Source of the DNA: a virus
Virus record (IMG/VR): IMGVR_UViG_3300021963_000767
Location: 1 to 21,276 of that record
DNA length: 21,276 bases
Direction: 5' to 3' (one strand)
Under the pieces are notes generated by a model. That model was not told the DNA's origin. It worked only from the letters and a program-made list of their open reading frames with translations, and searched no databases. Shown one piece after another: positions 2,379-21,276 of this stretch (position 1 is its first letter; each line of letters opens with the position of its first letter). Made by a program: the position numbers and the translations under genes.

Positions 2379-3458
2379 ATGACTGCATCCATCGCTAATC
2401 AGCGTGGTAGCAACACTTGGGAGCAATTCTGTGAGTGGGTTACCAGCACCAACAACCGTCTTTATGTTGGCTGGTTTGGAACATTAATGATTCCAACCCT
2501 TCTCGCTGCAGCAATCTGCTTCATCGTTGCTTTCGTCGCTGCACCTCCCGTCGATATTGACGGCATCCGTGAGCCTGTTGCTGGTTCACTCATGTATGGT
2601 AACAACATCATTTCTGGTGCTGTTGTTCCTTCGTCTAACGCTATCGGTCTCCATTTCTATCCCATCTGGGAAGCTAACTCACTTGACGAATGGCTATATA
2701 ATGGTGGACCATTTCAACTGGTCGTCTTCCATTTTCTAATCGGTATCTATGCCTACATGGGACGCGAATGGGAACTTTCTTACCGACTTGGTATGCGTCC
2801 TTGGATTTGTGTTGCCTACAGCGCACCCGTTGCTGCTGCTAGCGCAGTGTTTTTGGTCTATCCCTTCGGTCAAGGATCCTTCTCTGATGCGATGCCTCTG
2901 GGGATTTCGGGAACTTTCAACTACATGCTTGTTTTCCAGGCAGAACACAACATTCTCATGCATCCTTTCCACATGCTGGGAGTTGCTGGTGTCTTCGGTG
3001 GTTCTCTTTTCTCTGCTATGCATGGATCTCTTGTCACCTCTTCTCTCGTCCGTGAGACGACAGAAACTGAGTCCCAAAACTATGGTTACAAGTTCGGACA
3101 AGAAGAAGAGACCTACAACATTGTAGCTGCTCATGGTTACTTCGGTCGTCTGATCTTCCAGTATGCATCGTTCAATAACTCTCGTTCGCTACACTTCTTC
3201 CTTGCTGCTTGGCCTGTTGTCGGTATCTGGTTTACTGCCCTTGGCGTATCAACAATGGCGTTCAACCTCAACGGATTCAACTTTAACCAATCCATTCAGG
3301 ATAGTCAGGGTCATGTGATTAACACTTGGGCGGACATCCTTAATCGTGGTGGTCTTGGGATGGAGGTGATGCATGAAAGGAATGCTCACAATTTTCCTCT
3401 GGACCTTGCTGCTGCTAGTGCAACTCCTGTTGCTCTCACCGCACCTGCAATCGGTTGA
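2379..3458 (+). CDS. psbA: Photosystem II reaction-centre protein D1
   Basis: A full-length 359-aa D1. All key residues are present at standard numbering: TyrZ Y161, Mn-cluster ligands D170, E189, H332, E333, D342 and A344, chlorophyll and iron ligands H118, H198, H215 and H272, QB-site S264 and F265, and H190. Position 130 is Glu, as in the high-light D1:2 form. The C-terminal extension after A344 ([15 protein letters not shown]) is the part removed by CtpA. D1 turns over quickly in light, and phage copies are known to be expressed during infection to keep photosynthesis running. The gene is continuous, without the group I intron seen in some cyanophage psbA genes. It has its own promoter, leader and terminator, so it is an independent unit. 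Its codons look more host-like than those of the fibre genes, which fits acquisition from a cyanobacterium. Confidence 0.99.
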
Positions 3459-3520: not shown

Positions 3521-3544
3521 CACAACGACATTGGAGATACATTG

Positions 3545-3895
3545 ATGGTTAAAGAAGTGCTTGGTGTGCATCACATCGCAGAGTTATGTGAATGTAATGT
3601 AGACCTTTTGAATGATTCTGAATTCATTAGCACTTCCCTTAGGCAAGCAGTAGAACACGCTAACGCAACACTGATTGAAGAAGTTAAATACGAATTCACG
3701 CCACAGGGAATCACTGCTGTTTGTCTACTATCAGAAAGTCACATTAGTATTCACACATGGCCTGAGAAAGGTTATGCTGCCGTAGACATCTTTACTTGTG
3801 GCGACCATACAGCACCAGCCCAAGCTTGCAAATACTTGGTTGCTGCGCTAGAATCAAAACAACAAAACATACAGATTATTATGAGGGGAATCTAA
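3545..3895 (+). CDS. speD: S-adenosylmethionine decarboxylase proenzyme (SpeD)
   Basis: A 116-aa class 1B (bacterial-type) AdoMet decarboxylase. It makes decarboxylated S-adenosylmethionine, the aminopropyl donor for spermidine synthesis. The self-cleavage and pyruvoyl site SESHISIHTWPE is at 63-74, with cleavage expected between E64 and S65. The catalytic His is H70 and the catalytic Cys is C85 in DIFTCGD. Length equals the family norm of about 115-130 aa. I place the start at the ATG at 3545, because GGAG at 3533-3536 is 8 nt before it. A TTG one codon earlier is possible. The stop overlaps the start of the glutaredoxin gene (TAATG). SpeD is a recurrent auxiliary gene of cyanomyoviruses; polyamines may help DNA packaging or photosystem function, which is inference. 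Confidence 0.97.
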   Translation: MVKEVLGVHHIAELCECNVDLLNDSEFISTSLRQAVEHANATLIEEVKYEFTPQGITAVCLLSESHISIHTWPEKGYAAVDIFTCGDHTAPAQACKYLVAALESKQQNIQIIMRGI

Positions 3896-6967: not shown

Positions 6968-7318
6968 ATGTCAGATGAAATTATTGATGTGACATCAGAA
7001 CATATTGAAAATATTCCGCAAGAAAGAATAACAAAGGATGGAATGAATATTCCAGATCCTACTTTTATTGATGGACCTAGTGAAGAAGGACTAAAACAAA
7101 TTGAAGAGCGCAGAGCAGAAGTTTCTAATCTCCCTCAATTTCCAACAGAGTGGCAAGAAGAGTATACAGATGAAAATACAAAAGGGTTTGATGAAAATCT
7201 AAAACTCCCAGTCACTGCTACCATTAAACAGGATGAGATTAATAAACTCATCAAAAAGTATAAGCGTTATATGAAGAGCAACATCCGTGAAATTCGTCGT
7301 GTAGAAAATGATGTCTAA
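6968..7318 (+). CDS. Hypothetical acidic phage protein, 116 aa
   Basis: A hydrophilic protein with an acidic, probably disordered N-terminal two thirds (MSDEIIDVTSEHIENIPQ and later EEYTDENTKGFDENL) and a basic helical C-terminus (INKLIKKYKRYMKSN, IREIRRVEND). Clear GAGG site and own promoter at 6919. Its last codons overlap the thyX start by 11 nt. No family recognised. The split charge, an acidic arm plus a basic helix, would suit a nucleic-acid or adaptor role, but nothing proves it. Confidence 0.8.
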   Translation: MSDEIIDVTSEHIENIPQERITKDGMNIPDPTFIDGPSEEGLKQIEERRAEVSNLPQFPTEWQEEYTDENTKGFDENLKLPVTATIKQDEINKLIKKYKRYMKSNIREIRRVENDV

Positions 7319-7946
7319 TGTTAAACTGATTTCTGTTACGCCTGATGCAGAAAAGACAATGGCGTACGTTGCTAGAGTGTCTAATCCTAGCAACCAAGAG
7401 AATGAAAACTATGCAGGGCTACTTCGTTATTGCATCAAGCATAATCATTGGTCTGTGTTTGAGCAAGCTCATATGACTCTTGAGATTGAAACTACTCGTG
7501 CAATCTGTGCTCAGATTTTGCGTCACCGTAGTTTTACATATCAAGAATTTTCACAACGCTATGCAGATACTTCTCTGCTAACGGACCATATTCCTGTGCC
7601 AGATCTTCGTCGTCAGGATGAAAAGAACCGACAGAATTCTACGGATGACCTTGAAGGTTATCTAAAACTTAAACTAGAAGGTGAGATTCAAGAGCATTTT
7701 GAATCTGCAAATCGTCTTTACAAACGTCTTCTTAGTCATGGAGTTGCAAAGGAATGTGCTCGCATGGTGCTTCCTCTAGCAGTGCCAACTCGTATCTATA
7801 TGACTGGCTCGTGCAGGTCATGGATACATTATATTGATTTACGCTCAGCACATGGCACTCAGAAAGAGCATATGATTATCGCTGAGCAATGTCGTGAAGT
7901 ATTCAAACAACAGTTTCCAACAGTAGCAGAAGCATTGGAGTGGTGA
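7308..7946 (+). CDS. thyX: Flavin-dependent thymidylate synthase (ThyX)
   Basis: A 212-aa ThyX, which methylates dUMP to dTMP with methylene-tetrahydrofolate, FAD and NADPH. The signature RHRX7S is present as RHRSFTYQEFS at 72-82, followed by QRYAD. The upstream segment HNHWSVFEQAHMTLEIE (45-61) and the C-terminal RSWIHYIDLRSAHGTQKE (residues about 171-188) match the family. Length is typical (about 210-250). Two ATGs in a row (7308 and 7311) are possible starts; neither has a strong ribosome site, and both overlap the previous gene, so coupling is likely. T4 itself uses the unrelated ThyA-type enzyme, so this is a cyanophage replacement. Confidence 0.96.
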   Translation: MMSNVKLISVTPDAEKTMAYVARVSNPSNQENENYAGLLRYCIKHNHWSVFEQAHMTLEIETTRAICAQILRHRSFTYQEFSQRYADTSLLTDHIPVPDLRRQDEKNRQNSTDDLEGYLKLKLEGEIQEHFESANRLYKRLLSHGVAKECARMVLPLAVPTRIYMTGSCRSWIHYIDLRSAHGTQKEHMIIAEQCREVFKQQFPTVAEALEW

Positions 7947-8953: not shown

Positions 8954-9196
8954 ATGGCAATCTATCCAATCATTCACAAAGAAACGGGTGAAAAGAAAGT
9001 CATTGAGATGAGTGTGCATGACATCACTCAATGGTATAAAGATAACCCTGAGTGGCAGCGCGACTGGTCAGAGGGATGTGCATCTCCTGGTGAAGTCGGT
9101 GACTGGCAAAACAGACTCGGCAACCGCAATCCTGGTTGGCGAGAAGTAATCAACAGGGTAGCAAATGTCCCTGGTTCTACTGTAGAGAAAATCTAA
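8954..9196 (+). CDS. Conserved-looking small cyanophage protein, 80 aa
   Basis: The frame extends further upstream into the previous gene, but the ATG at 8954, one base after that gene's stop, is the natural start. The product begins MAIYPIIHKETGEKKVIEMS, has an aromatic, acidic middle (WYKDNPEWQRDWSEG, 28-42) and ends NVPGSTVEKI. I recall near-identical small proteins in other cyanomyoviruses, with no known function. No Shine-Dalgarno is visible; coupling is likely. The following phoH starts two bases after its stop. Confidence 0.8.
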   Translation: MAIYPIIHKETGEKKVIEMSVHDITQWYKDNPEWQRDWSEGCASPGEVGDWQNRLGNRNPGWREVINRVANVPGSTVEKI

Positions 9197-9198
9197 TT

Positions 9199-9957
9199 AT
9201 GCCTGTAAAATCTAGAAAGAAGAATGGAGCAGTCGTGCCTCCTGGTATGAGTCTGAAGCAAATGAAGAGGAAGAAACCAATCAATGCTGAGTTACTCACA
9301 GACATTGAGCCTCTTACTGACAACCAAAGAAAATACTTTGAAGAGTATGCTAAGGATAAAAACATGTTTGCCTATGGTTGTGCAGGCACAGGTAAGACAT
9401 TTATCGCTTTGTATTTGGCATTGAAAGATGTTCTTAATGAGAATACCCCATACGAAAAGATTTATATTGTCCGCTCACTGGTCGCTACTAGGGAGATTGG
9501 TTTCCTGCCAGGCGATCACGAAGACAAGTCTTCCCTTTATCAAATTCCGTATAAGAATATGGTAAAGTATATGTTTGAGATGCCTAATGATGATGAGTTT
9601 GATAAGCTCTATTATAATCTCAAAGCACAGGAAACCATTTCTTTCTGGAGCACATCGTTTATTCGTGGCACTACTCTAGACAACTGCATCATTCTGATTG
9701 ACGAGATGCAGAATCTAAACTTCCATGAATTAGATTCGATTATCACTCGCGTAGGTCAAGACTCAAAGATTATTTTCTCTGGAGATGTTAGACAGTCTGA
9801 CCTCATCAAAACTCATGAGCGTAATGGCATCATTGATTTCATGCGTATCATTGAAACAATGGATGAGTTTGCAACAGTCGAATTCCAAATCGAAGACATT
9901 GTACGTAGCGGACTTGTCCGTAGTTATCTCATTAGTAAAACAAATCTAGGACTCTGA
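9199..9957 (+). CDS. phoH: PhoH-family ATPase
   Basis: A 252-aa PhoH-like P-loop ATPase. Walker A is GCAGTGKT (60-67); Walker B is IILIDEMQNL (164-173); the sensor region FSGDVRQSDL is at 193-202, and a C-terminal helical part follows. I choose the ATG at 9199; the open frame runs further upstream only by overlapping the previous gene. PhoH is a standard cyanophage auxiliary gene. It was linked to phosphate starvation through E. coli, but its true role is uncertain and RNA metabolism has been proposed. No pho box is evident near it, and it lies inside a multi-gene transcript, so phosphate control of this copy is not supported here. Confidence 0.95.
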   Translation: MPVKSRKKNGAVVPPGMSLKQMKRKKPINAELLTDIEPLTDNQRKYFEEYAKDKNMFAYGCAGTGKTFIALYLALKDVLNENTPYEKIYIVRSLVATREIGFLPGDHEDKSSLYQIPYKNMVKYMFEMPNDDEFDKLYYNLKAQETISFWSTSFIRGTTLDNCIILIDEMQNLNFHELDSIITRVGQDSKIIFSGDVRQSDLIKTHERNGIIDFMRIIETMDEFATVEFQIEDIVRSGLVRSYLISKTNLGL

Positions 9958-14980: not shown

Positions 14981-14988
14981 TATTTAGA
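14981..14988 (-). promoter_or_regulatory. Late-promoter-like site, leftward
   Basis: Read on the minus strand, TCTAAATA matches TATAAATA at 7 of 8 positions and touches the first base of the rightward gene's ATG. It would drive gp4, the gp2-like gene, gp48 and gp53. Confidence 0.45.
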
Positions 14989-15632
14989 TGGCGTCTATCA
15001 AACAATTTTTATCTGCGGTTGCAAAATCTGGTGGAGTTGCTTACTCAAATACTTATGAAGTAAAGTTTGGACAACTTGGGGCTGCTGCCGAAGAAGAGAT
15101 ACGAAAAGCAGGATTCACTAGAAGCAGTAGTATTGGTGGCGCTGAAAGTCTACTTACATGGTTATGTGAGGAAGCGTCATTACCTGGAATGATGGCCAAC
15201 ACAGGACAAACTACAGGAAAATATCTGGGCGAAGGACAAGTAAATTATGCACATACAAAATCGTATCAAGATCTCACTCTCGGGTGGACATGTGATGCAA
15301 ACTTACTTCCATTAAAATTTTTAAATGGGTGGATGAGAGCAATTTTTTCGGAAAGTGATGGAAATCCAGGAAGATATACTACTACTAGATTGAATTACCC
15401 AGTTGATTATATGTGTCGCACAATGACTATTCTTAAAGCGGAAAGAAATGGTAGTGATACTTTAGGAAGACAAGCAGGTAAATATACTTTCAATGAGGTA
15501 TGGCCTTATGCTATTCAAAGCACTCCAGTATCATATGGATCTTCTCAACTTTTAAAAGTTACTGCCAGTTTTTATTATAGGAATTGGGCATTTACTGGAC
15601 TCAGTGGTGCTGGATCAGTAGGAGGAAACTAA
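14988..15632 (+). CDS. Tail-tube-family protein (gp54/gp19-like)
   Basis: A 214-aa protein with the T4 gp19 tail-tube pattern: SNTYEVKFG early, LCEEASLPGMM (about 59-69), NYAHTKSYQDLTLGWTC for the central strands, LKFLNGWMRAIF, and a C-terminal block EVWPYAIQSTPVSYGSSQ then VTASFYYRNWAF, which corresponds to the Trp-Pro and antiparallel strands of tail-tube subunits. Because it lies with the baseplate hub and gp48 genes, the tube initiator gp54 is the more likely identity, but gp19 itself is possible. The start ATG has no ribosome site; GGAGG-like bases nearby belong to the other strand. Confidence 0.78.
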   Translation: MASIKQFLSAVAKSGGVAYSNTYEVKFGQLGAAAEEEIRKAGFTRSSSIGGAESLLTWLCEEASLPGMMANTGQTTGKYLGEGQVNYAHTKSYQDLTLGWTCDANLLPLKFLNGWMRAIFSESDGNPGRYTTTRLNYPVDYMCRTMTILKAERNGSDTLGRQAGKYTFNEVWPYAIQSTPVSYGSSQLLKVTASFYYRNWAFTGLSGAGSVGGN

Positions 15633-15674: not shown

Positions 15675-16391
15675 ATGTCTTTACCAAAGCCCCCAGTGCC
15701 AACATATGAGTTGCAACTTCCCTCATCTGGCAAGACAATTAAATACAGACCATTCCTAGTTAAAGAAGAAAAGATTCTTCTGATGGCAACGGAGAGTCAA
15801 GATGATAAAGAGATTCGTAATGCTATTATTGAAACACTGAAGTCTTGCATTACTACCAGAGGCATCAAGGTCGATGAGTTGCCTATGTTTGATTTAGAAT
15901 ATGTCTTCTTGAGAATTAGGTCTAAGTCTGTAGGCGAAATCGTTGAGATGATTTTCACTGCTAAGGATGATGGAGAGACATCTATTCCATACAAGTTAAA
16001 TCTTGAGGAAGTAGATGTTATCAAACCAGAAGGTCATGATAAAAAAGTGATGCTAACTGATAATGCTGGTTTGATTATGAAGTATCCTGGCATGGAGCAG
16101 TTTATTACATCTCAAATCTTACAGAAAGAGCAGTCAACTCAAGAAATATTTGATGTCATTGTTGATTGCGTTGAGCAAATTTTTGACGGTGATGAGGTAT
16201 GGGAAGGGTCGAGTCTTTCTAAGAAGGATATCTCTGATTACCTTGAGGGTCTAACAAGCAAACAGTTTGAAGCAATTCAAAACTTCTTTGCCACCATGCC
16301 TAAGGTATCTCATACATTTAAGTTGAAGAATCCTAAGACAGGTGTTGAATCTGAGTATACTCTTGAGGGGCTCACAAATTTTTTCGCATAA
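15675..16391 (+). CDS. 26: gp26-type baseplate hub assembly protein (tail chaperone-like)
   Basis: A 238-aa member of the T4 gp26 (T4_baseplate) family: MSLPKPPVPTYELQLPSSGK, YRPFLVKEEKILLMA (about 25-39), IRNAIIETLKSCI, LPMFDLEYVFLRIRSKSVGE (63-100 region), and a C-terminal half with LEGLTSKQFEAIQNFFATMP. AAAGGAG (15661-15667) is 7 nt before the ATG. In T4 gp26 is needed for hub assembly. Its position right before a tape-measure-like gene is the place that tail-assembly chaperones hold in many phages. The last codons contain a -1 slippery heptamer and the frame can continue for another 59 codons (see the frameshift entries). Confidence 0.9.
   Translation: MSLPKPPVPTYELQLPSSGKTIKYRPFLVKEEKILLMATESQDDKEIRNAIIETLKSCITTRGIKVDELPMFDLEYVFLRIRSKSVGEIVEMIFTAKDDGETSIPYKLNLEEVDVIKPEGHDKKVMLTDNAGLIMKYPGMEQFITSQILQKEQSTQEIFDVIVDCVEQIFDGDEVWEGSSLSKKDISDYLEGLTSKQFEAIQNFFATMPKVSHTFKLKNPKTGVESEYTLEGLTNFFA
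16376..16382 (+). promoter_or_regulatory. Predicted -1 ribosomal frameshift site
   Basis: The heptamer A-AAT-TTT, in the gp26 frame, is a canonical X-XXY-YYZ slippery site, three codons before the gp26 stop. A Shine-Dalgarno-like GAGGGG at 16365-16370 ends 5 nt before it, at the distance known to stimulate -1 shifts in bacterial dnaX. After slipping, ribosomes enter the -1 frame, which is closed just upstream by TGA (16364-16366) and open downstream to 16561. I saw no convincing downstream hairpin. Confidence 0.7.
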
Positions 16392-16561
16392 GTCTCTTCC
16401 ATGAAAATCTCGCTAACTTTTATCAAACTAATTTCAATTTAATGTATCACCATAAGTTTTCATTAACTGAATTAGATAATATGATACCTTGGGAGAGAGA
16501 AGTTTATGTTGCTATGCTTAGTAATTATCTAGAAGAGCAAAAGAATAGTCAACAACAATGA
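16382..16561 (+). CDS. C-terminal extension of gp26 made by -1 frameshift
   Basis: Fifty-nine codons in the -1 frame, starting FRISLFHENLANFYQ, then MYHHKFSLTELDNMIPWERE and VYVAMLSNYLEEQKN. The block with PWERE-VY-AML-YLEE resembles the T part of G-T tail assembly chaperones. The first ATG in this frame (16442) has no ribosome site, so independent translation is unlikely. With gp26 it would give a 295-aa fusion. The stop overlaps the ATG of the tape-measure-like gene (ATGA at 16558). The region fills what would otherwise be a 166-nt gap. Confidence 0.7.
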   Translation, partial: FRISLFHENLANFYQTNFNLMYHHKFSLTELDNMIPWEREVYVAMLSNYLEEQKNSQQQ

Positions 16562-19500
16562 ACCCAGCACAACCACCAGAAGGAATACTAGATCCCCAAC
16601 AACCTTATTGGCCTGCTGATAGGGTTGGTGAGGTTACTTGGTTGCGTCTGAAAGGTAAGCTGACTGGCAGACCAGTGCCAGGATTGAGTGAAAACTTTAC
16701 ATCGTATGTAAAACTTGGTGATGCTGATGCTGATAGATTGATTGCAAACATCAAAAAGTATGGTCAGTATCCACAAGTTAATCAAAATGATAAGTATGGT
16801 GGTGCATACAACAATGAAGCATATCAGAAGTGGTTGGTAGAAGAGTTTCTTGAGAAACCATTTCGTGAGGAAGTAAATGAAAAGATTGATGCTAAGACAG
16901 AGCAGGTATTAAACAGAGTATTTCCTGAAGCACAAGAAGAAATTAAGGAAGCAGAAACTAAATCAGAAGTTGCTGCTGTCATAGAAGATAAGGTAGAAGT
17001 ATTAGAAGCAATTAAGGAGGATATGAATCCTCCTCGTAGTGAGTATCAAAGACCTGCTGATCCTTGGGAGGGAAGTGAAACTGTTCCTAAGACTGAGAAA
17101 AAAAAGAAAAAACCTTCCAGAAGAAAACTTAAGAGACCTAAGAATACAGTTAAGAAAAAAAAGAAACCAAAAGCACCCTCAGCTGGCGGTAATGAACCAC
17201 CTACGCCACCAAGTAGAAGAAAGCGTCTCGGTAGAATGCTTGGTGGCGGTCTTAAGAAGACTGGATCTTATATAGGTAAAACATTATTCTCTGGAGGGTC
17301 AGCAGGGGGTGGAGGAAGCAGCGCAGAAGGTGAAGGTCCATCTTTATTATCACTTGGATCCTGGTTAGGTAAAAAAGTGAACAAGGCATTCCAAGATGCC
17401 AAAGAGCAGAAAGAAAGAGCATTAGAAGCACAGTCTAATGGCGCTGATATACCTCAAGAAGTATTAGAGCCTGGATATTTTATCAAGAAGTCTATAGGTT
17501 ATCAGTTTGGTGGACAAGCATTTGATAAAACATTTGGGGCATTCATTGAGAGTATGCCATCTAAACAATCCAAATCTAAAGCAGGATTTGGAGACCAATT
17601 TGACTATGGAGATTCAGACCCCAAGAAGAAAAAGAAAGCAAACGAGATACGTGATTTAGCAACTGGATTTAAAAAAGTATCTGCTGCTTTAGGAGTAATT
17701 AACAGTCAAATAACAAAACAGACACAGACATTAGAGCAACTTGTTAATGCCAGTGAAAGAAATTCAGATTTATTAGAAGGTATATTAACATCTATATCTA
17801 AGATGGTTGGTGTTGAAATTGATTCTGGGTCTGATGAAGCAATGGCACAACAGGCTGCTCCTGGTGATGTGAATATCCCATCTATTGATTTTAGTGGTTT
17901 ACTTGGCAAGTCTGAAGGTGGATTAGATTGGTTTGATTTGTTGATGGCAGCAGATGATACTAGAGATATTGCAAAGAAAATAAAGGGAGGTGGTCAGAGG
18001 TCTACTACCAGAAGAAGTGGTCCTAAAATAACAGGTGATGTGCCAAAGAGAAACAGGTTTAAAATGTCTTCTTTTGGTAGGAGAATGAAGTTTTCTGAAG
18101 GTGCTGCATCTGTCGGAGCCACAGTCCCAGCATTGATAGGAGAAGCTGGTCCTGAGATGCTTATCAGGGGCGCTGCTCCAAAAAAACTCGCTGAAGGTGG
18201 TGTCATACAGGGCACTGGTAGTAACATTCTTGCTACTGGTCTGGGCGCTGCTGGAGATTTGATGAAGAAAGTGCAACCATTTGCTAACGTAATGGAGATG
18301 CCGTTTAAAGTAATTGGTGCTCAAATATCTGGCGCTCTCGCTAGTTTAGTAAGTGCTGCTGGTCCTTTTAGTGGAGTCATTGCTAAGATGTTTTCTCCTT
18401 TACTGGGAGGATTGGCAACATTATTTGGTTTAAATCAAGGAGCATTTGCTGCTGAAATTAATTCGGCTGCCATGACAGAAGAGCAGGGTGCTAAAGAATT
18501 AACCAAATTCTTTGCTAATTTTTTCAGATGGTTGGGAATTAATTTGGGTGACGGAAATCAAAATACTGCAGCTGATCCGCCACCAGGAGGATATGTTCCT
18601 ATTGATTGGAAACAAGATCCAGCATTTGGAGAAGCAGTTAACAAAGTTGCTCAGTATTTTAATATCAATGCTGGAGATTTGATGGGATTAATGGCATCTG
18701 AATCTGGATTGAATCCTGCGTCGGACAATGGATCGCGCACTGGATTAATTCAAATGGGGGACAGTCAAGCAAGAGCTGCTGGCACTACAAGAGATGCTCT
18801 GAGAAAAATGTCTAGGGCAGAGCAGATGCCATTTGTGCAAAAGTATTTGGAGAATGCAAAACTCCCCAAAGGTGCTTCTGCTGGGCAATTATATACGGCA
18901 GTTTTCTTACCAGCATTTGTTGGAGCTCCAGATGATTCGGTTGTTGCTACACAATCTGGCACAGGAATCGTTAGTGGTTACGGAAATTTTTCTGCGTCTG
19001 AAGTTAAGGGATGGTATGCTGAAAATGCGGGTCTTGATAAAGATCCTGCAGATGGTAAGATAACAATTAAAGAATTAGGAGAAAGAATACGACTGAAGAA
19101 AAAAGAATTTGGTATTTCTGCTGCTCGTGGAACTGCACAAACTATCTCTTCTGATTTTTCTAGTCAGATTCGTGGATTGTTTGAGATATCTGGACCCCCA
19201 ACAGGATATATTGTTCCTCCAAAATATACTGCAGGACAATCTGTAATAGGTCATGGCACTGAATTGCTGGCACAAGTGGGCAATAAAATGTTAATTGCTC
19301 CTATACAAAATAAAGCATTTGATGTTTATAAAGATCCAGCAAAAGCATTTAATAGATATGAAGAGATAGCAAGACAAGGCGGAATACAAGTTGCTGGTTT
19401 TGTTGATTTGATGGATCGTATAATATTTGGTGCCCCCAAAAAAGGACCATCTAATCTTAGATATCAAACTGGACCCAGAGATGCCATAGAGGCAATTGGT

Positions 19501-19767
19501 GGAAAATATTATGCTCCTTATGGTCCAGATTCATCATTCAAACCAGTAAGAGAGGCATCATTGCCGCAGGGAAATGTGATGCCACTGCCAATCCCTAAGG
19601 ATACTGTTAGTGGCACTTCGGTTGCTATGGTGCAAACAATTACTCCTGTGATACAGCAGGTGCCAGTTTATATTAAGGGTGATACTCAATACATTAACGT
19701 TCCTGCAAATCCTTTGGTTGCTGCTAGAGAAAAAGCAAGACTATCTCATTACACATCTATAACCTAA
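16558..19767 (+). CDS. Tape-measure-like tail protein with lysozyme/transglycosylase-like domain
   Basis: A 1069-aa protein. Residues 1-180 are mixed and charged, 180-205 a lysine-rich linker, 210-290 Gly/Ser-rich with EGEGPSLLSLGSWLGKK, and about 375-420 a helical region (LGVINSQITKQTQTLEQL). VPALIGEAGPEMLI (about 522-535) is the phrase common in the C-terminal parts of tape-measure proteins. Residues of about 690-800 form a lytic-transglycosylase or lysozyme-like domain: LMASESGLNP with likely catalytic E715, then GLIQMGDSQA. This domain would open the peptidoglycan during DNA injection. The gene lies directly after gp26 and its frameshift extension, as tape measures do after their chaperones. 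T4 gp29 is only 590 aa, so direct equivalence is uncertain. Confidence 0.75.
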   Translation: MNPAQPPEGILDPQQPYWPADRVGEVTWLRLKGKLTGRPVPGLSENFTSYVKLGDADADRLIANIKKYGQYPQVNQNDKYGGAYNNEAYQKWLVEEFLEKPFREEVNEKIDAKTEQVLNRVFPEAQEEIKEAETKSEVAAVIEDKVEVLEAIKEDMNPPRSEYQRPADPWEGSETVPKTEKKKKKPSRRKLKRPKNTVKKKKKPKAPSAGGNEPPTPPSRRKRLGRMLGGGLKKTGSYIGKTLFSGGSAGGGGSSAEGEGPSLLSLGSWLGKKVNKAFQDAKEQKERALEAQSNGADIPQEVLEPGYFIKKSIGYQFGGQAFDKTFGAFIESMPSKQSKSKAGFGDQFDYGDSDPKKKKKANEIRDLATGFKKVSAALGVINSQITKQTQTLEQLVNASERNSDLLEGILTSISKMVGVEIDSGSDEAMAQQAAPGDVNIPSIDFSGLLGKSEGGLDWFDLLMAADDTRDIAKKIKGGGQRSTTRRSGPKITGDVPKRNRFKMSSFGRRMKFSEGAASVGATVPALIGEAGPEMLIRGAAPKKLAEGGVIQGTGSNILATGLGAAGDLMKKVQPFANVMEMPFKVIGAQISGALASLVSAAGPFSGVIAKMFSPLLGGLATLFGLNQGAFAAEINSAAMTEEQGAKELTKFFANFFRWLGINLGDGNQNTAADPPPGGYVPIDWKQDPAFGEAVNKVAQYFNINAGDLMGLMASESGLNPASDNGSRTGLIQMGDSQARAAGTTRDALRKMSRAEQMPFVQKYLENAKLPKGASAGQLYTAVFLPAFVGAPDDSVVATQSGTGIVSGYGNFSASEVKGWYAENAGLDKDPADGKITIKELGERIRLKKKEFGISAARGTAQTISSDFSSQIRGLFEISGPPTGYIVPPKYTAGQSVIGHGTELLAQVGNKMLIAPIQNKAFDVYKDPAKAFNRYEEIARQGGIQVAGFVDLMDRIIFGAPKKGPSNLRYQTGPRDAIEAIGGKYYAPYGPDSSFKPVREASLPQGNVMPLPIPKDTVSGTSVAMVQTITPVIQQVPVYIKGDTQYINVPANPLVAAREKARLSHYTSIT

Positions 19768-19790: not shown

Positions 19791-21276
19791 ATGGCAGCAT
19801 TTACTACCACACCAACAGAAGCTGGCGAAGGTCCAAGTCTCATTGGAATAGCTAAATCTATTGGCACAAAGATTCGTGATGCTGCCGAGAATGCTAAGGA
19901 AGAAAGAGAGAAGGCGCAGGAAGCAGGTGAAACTCCAAAGAAAGGGTCTCTTTTTAAGTCTTCTTTAGCAAATCAATTCAACCCAATCAAGTCCAAGAAA
20001 GCAAAGTCTAATTGGGCGAAGCAATTTAGTTGGAATAAACCAAAAGATAAACCAGTAACGCCACCGACACAAGCAGATGGTGTCGAAGGTTCTGCTAAAC
20101 TAAAAGAATTTATTGCGGGTGGATTCACTGCTATCTTAAAAGATACTGGTGTAATGGTATCCAAACTTGGTGGAATCAATGATGGCATTGGACAGAATTT
20201 AGCGGCAACAACTAGCTCTTCTGGCACTCTTACTGCAATCAAAGAAACATTAGATGCTCAAACTGACTTAAGAAGAAAGGCATTAGAAGAAGCAAAATAT
20301 GCTAGAGCAGAAAAGCAATTAGAAAAAACACAGGATACATCAAGTAGTAGGTCTCCTTTTGATACAACTGAAAAGGATAAGTCTGATGGAGAAGGTGGTG
20401 ATGACGGGGGTGGTGGACCTTTTGATTGGATGTTAAATTTACTTGGACTTGGCGATTTAGCAAGTAACTTCATCCCTGATAAGTGGTTACAAAAATTAAA
20501 TCCATTTAAAAAATCCCCAGTAACTCAGGGAGGTGGAGGCAAACCTCCTGGTCCTAGAATGCCTGGCAGTGGTCCTAGAGTTACTACTAGTGGTGGTGTT
20601 CCTGCTCCAGCAGCAAAGCAGCCATGGTGGAAAAAGATGTTGCCTTTCGCAGATGATGCCGCGAAGGGTGCTGCTGAAGCAGGAGCAAAAAAAGGTGCTG
20701 GCGGATTACTTGGTAGATTACTTCCAGGAGCGCAGCAAGCTTTAGCTGTTGGACTTGCTGGTAAAGCACTCAGCGAAGGTGATATGATAGGTGCTCTTTT
20801 ATCTGGTGGATCTGGTATTCCATTGGGAGGTTATGCGTTCTTGGGAATGGATATGCTTAGAAATTTTGTAGGAAAAGATTTCTTTGATAAGTCCTATGGA
20901 CAAGCATTAAGTGGTGATTTAGGACTTTCTGACGCTGAAATAGAAAAGCGTAACAAAACGATGACGGGATTGGAAAAAGGACTATTGAGCATGGGTTCTC
21001 CGTCTCTTTTTTCTGAAGGTGGTATAGTTCCATCAGCAGTGCCACCATCTCCTGTTTCTCCAATGGCACAGGGAGGTGTAGTAGATAATCCAACCAAAAC
21101 TAATTTGAATCCAGGTGATTCTGTTATACCATTGAATCGTAATGTTGGCAAGAAGATGTTTGGTGGCGCTAAGGATACATCTGCAGGAGAAACTGCAGTT
21201 GATACTGTTGGCGCAATGATTCTTGGTGTTGCTTCTGGTATGCTCGGCAAGACAGAGAGTGGCACTGCAGGTGATA
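19791..21276 (+). CDS. Second tape-measure-like structural protein (partial, runs off the window)
   Basis: Open from ATG 19791 to the window end without a stop: at least 495 codons. GGGAG (19776-19780) is 10 nt upstream. The N-terminus EAGEGPSLIGIAKSIGTK then AAENAKEEREKAQEAG parallels residues 256-292 of the preceding protein (EGEGPSLLSLGSWLGKK then AFQDAKEQKERALEAQ), so the two are probably related by duplication. Later parts include a coiled-coil-like stretch (IKETLDAQTDLRRKALEEAK), Gly/Pro-rich linkers and LFSEGGIVPS, AQGGVVDNPTKTNLNPGDSVIPLNR-type sequence near the edge, typical of tape-measure ends. The role in tail length or cell-wall penetration is inferred. Confidence 0.75.
   Translation, partial: MAAFTTTPTEAGEGPSLIGIAKSIGTKIRDAAENAKEEREKAQEAGETPKKGSLFKSSLANQFNPIKSKKAKSNWAKQFSWNKPKDKPVTPPTQADGVEGSAKLKEFIAGGFTAILKDTGVMVSKLGGINDGIGQNLAATTSSSGTLTAIKETLDAQTDLRRKALEEAKYARAEKQLEKTQDTSSSRSPFDTTEKDKSDGEGGDDGGGGPFDWMLNLLGLGDLASNFIPDKWLQKLNPFKKSPVTQGGGGKPPGPRMPGSGPRVTTSGGVPAPAAKQPWWKKMLPFADDAAKGAAEAGAKKGAGGLLGRLLPGAQQALAVGLAGKALSEGDMIGALLSGGSGIPLGGYAFLGMDMLRNFVGKDFFDKSYGQALSGDLGLSDAEIEKRNKTMTGLEKGLLSMGSPSLFSEGGIVPSAVPPSPVSPMAQGGVVDNPTKTNLNPGDSVIPLNRNVGKKMFGGAKDTSAGETAVDTVGAMILGVASGMLGKTESGTAGD

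Follow-up and report, generated by a model that had tools for sequence, protein, structure and literature searches.

A conserved T-run at the end of gp26 and a probable −1 frameshift producing short and long tail assembly chaperones in a cyanophage

Tail assembly chaperones (TACs) of the lambda G/GT and HK97 type are made from a short gene that follows the tail tube gene and slips into the −1 frame near its 3′ end to add an extension, and the locus described here shares this layout. The slippery sequence of lambda is G_GGA_AAG. In phage T4, gp51 combines PF12322 (residues 1-201) and a phrog_634 domain in a single frame, and gp26 is a separate gene on the opposite strand to gp51. The same arrangement of one short (gp26) and one long (gp51) gene on opposite strands is found in VR20, 44RR, Acj9 and PKO111, and in EC-F2 the fusion is followed by a short protein on the same strand that looks gp26-like by eye. 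That T4-like phages make their TACs either by frameshifting or from two genes has been described by Vladimirov, Gautam and Davidson (2022, Virology 566:9-15, as cited in PMC10885494 and PMC12846349). Citing this work, the PRFect paper (PMC10885494) notes that some T4-like phages carry short and fused long TAC genes with no frameshifting, and the Adele paper (PMC12846349) refers to poly-T slip signals in the TAC-N genes of T4-like phages. The conserved motif at the TAC locus of Vandenendeviridae and Andersonviridae is GTTTTT (PMC12846349). Among the papers searched, none dealing explicitly with cyanophages was found, the 2022 study being represented here by the papers that cite it. Since the trick is known in many phages and has already been proposed for T4-like ones, a frameshifted T4-like TAC is not in itself new, and the present locus is real but mostly ordinary. 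The first-pass annotation, made from the letters of this DNA, had presented the redefinition of gp26 as a chaperone as a novelty, but in this it was preceded by Vladimirov, Gautam and Davidson 2022, as that study is reported in PMC10885494 and PMC12846349.

The window is a stretch of 21,276 nucleotides, a 21-kb virus record (IMGVR_UViG_3300021963_000767) and not a whole genome. It carries genes typical of cyanophages, namely psbA (photosystem II D1), S-adenosylmethionine decarboxylase, thymidylate synthase and PhoH-like genes (2379-3458, 3542-3895, 7308-7946 and 9136-9957), and, on the minus strand at 1167-2222, a tail-fibre-like ORF that contains ~35-residue repeats (TSYTETDPVFSASPAGSITETNKTNW...). 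The locus itself lies on the plus strand. A tail tube gene (14988-15632; PF23849, E 2.3e-35; phrog_45, E 1.6e-39) is located 5′ of gp26, which is the neighbourhood expected for a TAC. The gp26 gene (15675-16391), with the Shine-Dalgarno (SD) sequence AAAGGAG before its ATG, encodes the putative short chaperone form (TAC-N, G-like) of 238 aa and ends at TAA 16389-16391. The elements on which the first-pass annotation had built a frameshift are present: the heptamer A_AAT_TTT (16376-16382) close to the gp26 stop, with the sense codons TTC GCA preceding the TAA; GAGGGG (16365-16370) five bases 5′ of that heptamer; and a −1 frame that is closed by TGA at 16364-16366 and then open until TGA 16559-16561, which overlaps the next ATG at 16558 (ATGA, 16558-16561). 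Here A_AAT_TTT overlaps a second heptamer of the X_XXY_YYZ type, T_TTT_TTC (16379-16385), which begins three bases further 3′ and had escaped the first-pass annotation; the identical fusion protein, with the junction ...LTNFF/RISLFHENL..., would result from either.

The site, the frame, the selection on both coding parts and a fold resemblance can be seen directly, and from them we infer that gp26 very probably yields a short and a long TAC by a −1 slip at T_TTT_TTC. The majority of ribosomes would terminate at TAA 16389 to give the short form of 238 aa, and a fraction would slip back one base on TTT TTC (16380-16385), where GAGGGG, 9 nt to the 5′ side, is positioned to pull on the ribosome. 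Slipped ribosomes would continue with CGC ATA AGT... to TGA 16559 and complete a predicted long form of 295 aa (237 + 58). By analogy with lambda G/GT, the short forms may coat the tape measure protein and the long form may use its T-like tail to recruit tail tube subunits.

Conservation of the site was assessed in loci taken from two scans of viral contigs, one scan of genome contigs (viral-looking MAG contigs) and ten phage records. Among 212 gp26 ORFs examined, two run off the contig at the junction and one is masked there, leaving 209 readable loci; nonredundant sets comprised 65 loci for a first codon alignment, enlarged to 151. An in-frame T_TTT_TTN is present at the homologous place in 208/209 readable loci (TTTTTTC 180, TTTTTTT 21, TTTTTTA 5, TTTTTTG 2), in phages of Vibrio, Aeromonas, Pseudomonas, Sinorhizobium, Rhizobium and cyanobacteria, and the single exception, L211, carries GTTTTTTA in a different register from the rest. 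The 0-frame stop is about seven codons further 3′ in 14 loci (8 codons as against 1), and the heptamer is unchanged there. Conservation of the T-run heptamer is thus far beyond chance. The first-pass annotation's −1 shift in gp26 is upheld by this conservation and by codon constraint, but its slip site, A_AAT_TTT, is not: the heptamer is missing from about 92% of the relatives (present in 17/208 loci, 13/151 nonredundant) and is rejected as the conserved slip site against a near-universal T_TTT_TTN. That the shift in the window takes place mainly at A_AAT_TTT is accordingly an unlikely proposition. In its favour, the heptamer is canonical in form and the 13 loci that have it show weaker mean downstream structure; against it, it stands just 5 nt from the SD-like element and is absent from most relatives, whereas T_TTT_TTN is universal. 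The heptamer is lineage-specific and possibly auxiliary, and the two heptamers may act together in the clade of the window.

The codon constraint anticipated at the junction was borne out, the two phenylalanine codons of the site being the strongest codon-choice anomalies of the gene (65 loci, 56 conserved columns; TTC G=102.8, TTT G=44.8, next best 17.6). The first is TTT in all 151 nonredundant loci, and the codon before the site ends in T in 151/151 (99.5 expected) while its residue varies between S, N, D, A, T and G. Phe-Phe pairs at the site read TTT_TTC in 128/146 nonredundant cases, compared with 8/142 pairs elsewhere in gp26. The p-values for codon choice treat the loci as independent and the loci are related, but the effect sizes are so large that they are unlikely to be due to kinship alone. 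A run of six T's, eight or more in some relatives, might also make RNA polymerase slip during transcription and would result in the same protein; this we regard as highly improbable, because the seventh base is mostly C (TTTTTTC 128 vs TTTTTTT 18) and because codon phase, an SD-like element at a fixed distance and downstream structure are kept in the family, all of which fit slipping of the ribosome. A −1-frame stop abuts the 5′ side of the T-run in 20/208 loci, which pins the shift to the T-run.

The SD-like element is itself marked by codon choice. The Glu of a conserved Glu-Gly pair that precedes the site is encoded by GAG in 86/110 rows with this pair, against a background of 29% (p 4e-26, counting loci as independent), and Glu-Gly pairs elsewhere in gp26 have GAG in 29/99. 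GAGGG or GGAGG is found in the same register, 9-10 nt before the heptamer, in 86/151 loci, and the predicted pairing with the anti-SD exceeds that of synonymous shuffles in strength (z −13.5). In the window GAGGG ends 9 nt 5′ of T_TTT_TTC, a gap that from GAGGGG to A_AAT_TTT is only 5 nt. In E. coli dnaX an SD sequence precedes the heptamer A_AAA_AAG by about 10 nt and a stop follows immediately. The gp26 family resembles dnaX in SD spacing and, in most relatives, has a hairpin just 3′ of the site, whereas the window is without one.

Across the family, extension codons 2-22 are predicted to form more stable RNA structure than their synonymous shuffles do (mean z −1.82, 62% below −1.5), as opposed to the later extension segments (mean z −0.17 and −0.10), and the excess of structure after the site is similar against dinucleotide shuffles. 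The relatives mostly keep a stable hairpin just 3′ of the slip site (the region of 16386-16450 in the window), beyond the demands of coding, and this selected hairpin is apparently a new, if modest, detail. As a stimulator in the window itself such a hairpin was looked for and rejected, since the 60 nt past the slip site showed no RNA structure (MFE 0; z +1.4 to +1.7), and structure is also weak in its near relatives L001-L011. The loci with AAATTTT (13/151) average weaker downstream structure than the others (−8.3 vs −12.6 kcal/mol, p 0.003, uncorrected for kinship), which may reflect shared descent only.

The −1-frame extension (16385-16561, 58 codons from CGC and TGA) is a coding sequence. 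With 61 independent pairs, dN/dS in the −1 frame is 0.083 and substitutions at its codon positions 1/2/3 number 274/117/791, a clear sign of purifying selection. Stops are lacking in the −1 frame in 151/151 nonredundant loci, as the frameshift proposal had demanded of the relatives, and are present in both other frames in each of the same 151. The first-pass annotation had taken its 59 codons for a T part without a name; they are indeed coding in the −1 frame, but they belong to the known gp51 family, matching phrog_634 ('baseplate hub assembly catalyst', gp51) with E 2e-25. In one relative (L073) an apparent indel following SLTEL (about codon 30-41) shortens the extension to 41 aa and reflects either a sequencing error or a broken gene.

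Public annotation treats gp51 as a separate gene with differing starts, or omits it. It is annotated separately in S-PM2, where the start is placed just past the gp26 stop, and in Syn1, phiM7, pf16 and S-CRM01, and in many loci an ATG, GTG or TTG does occur early in the extension, so that translation from an internal start of its own deserves to be weighed. Start-codon positions lead us to reject it as a general explanation and to consider it very improbable: 147/151 loci lack any −1-frame start codon 5′ of the slip, and in 41/151, the window included, a start of whatever kind is first met at least 18 codons into the extension. The conserved residues ahead of such late starts are under purifying selection: extension codons 2-18, which precede any start codon of the window, show 86/52/242 substitutions by codon position. 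In the window no usable start exists before codon 20, and the first −1-frame start past the junction, ATG 16442, has no SD before it, in agreement with the first-pass annotation, which had seen no ribosome site for an internal ATG. The variation of annotated starts between records, some of which omit the gene, also speaks against a separate gp51, and a separate gene would leave the codon choice in the T-run unexplained. For many marine phages this would correct the annotation: gp51 is most likely no gene of its own but the terminal part of a frameshifted gp26, and to call it a 'baseplate hub assembly catalyst' is misleading.

The short form is a clear member of its family, matching PF12322 with E 3.5e-71 (239.8 bits vs a cut-off of 24.5) and phrog_150 with E 5.1e-75. 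Its AlphaFold2 model (pLDDT 91), built from window and locus rows, has the HK97 TAC as its top Foldseek hit (E 0.95, prob 0.75), and the three first ranks of VIA-align 2 are 2ob9 (HK97 TAC, Z 6.8), 3klu (YqbN, Z 6.6) and 3fgx (Z 6.1), followed by an unrelated row at 4.2; these matches cover only gp26 residues 1-95, and Z values under 8 can reflect a common arrangement. We take 3klu and 3fgx to be TACs, their PDB titles being silent on the role, and on this reading the best matches to the predicted fold come from HK97 and Bacillus TACs. In a profile search of PDB sequences gp26 gave no meaningful match, and a search of NCBIfam gave none. The modelled fold is thus suggestive of a TAC, and from fold, gene position and literature gp26 and its extension would act as a tail assembly chaperone pair. 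The G/GT-like pair of the first-pass annotation gains from the coding constraint in the −1 frame and from the TAC fold match, even if recasting gp26 as a chaperone is no novelty. HK97 TAC 2ob9 resembles the modelled fold of the first ~90 residues of gp26, but compared with lambda and HK97 the short form of the window is larger, having an added C-terminal half, its slippery sequence differs, and no sequence similarity to gp26 was detected in solved structures.

Towards the T4-like phages the relationship is one of homology. The gp26 and gp51 proteins of these phages and those of the window are homologous (PF12322, phrog_150, phrog_634) and occur as a short and a long form in both; the arrangement differs in that the window has one gp26 gene with a −1-frame extension where T4 has two genes. 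Only one PF12322 gene was seen in the 21-kb fragment. In an unrooted tree of the short domain, T4-type gp26, T4-type gp51 and the frameshift type form three supported groups. Cyanophages and many relatives would thus obtain by frameshifting the same pair of proteins that T4 encodes in two genes. In Campylobacter phage CC_R7 (L089:943-1683) a single 246-aa protein (phrog_23772) has a gp51-like end and is a possible in-frame long form.

The next tail gene (16558-19767, plus strand, 1069 aa) is a candidate tape measure. It contains a region like a phage lysozyme/baseplate-hub domain; profile searches gave it no tape measure identity, and BLASTP found no similarity to T4 gp29 (best E 1.5), a result that does not exclude homology. 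Its start, ATG 16558, has no SD. Of the 115 loci in which a next long gene was found, 94 have its start abutting or overlapping the −1-frame stop, an arrangement that is apparently also a new and modest detail, and SD strength averages −1.7 kcal/mol at these starts vs −3.4 kcal/mol at gp26 starts (−1.1 vs −8.3 in the window). With an ATGA overlap and a start lacking an SD, mainly the slipped ribosomes could end there and restart. It is possible, though doubtful, that frameshifting in this way also meters the next tail gene, with the hairpin-free clade of the window relying on GAGGGG and the 10-base AAATTTTTTC; if so, the ratio of three tail proteins would be fixed by a single slip. The absence of an SD is, however, shared by other overlapping genes in the window, and coupling is for that reason offered as a hypothesis only. 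A region of weak similarity (GEGPSL..., BLASTP E 2e-4) is common to the large tail genes at 16558-19767 and 19791-21275, which are perhaps paralogous.
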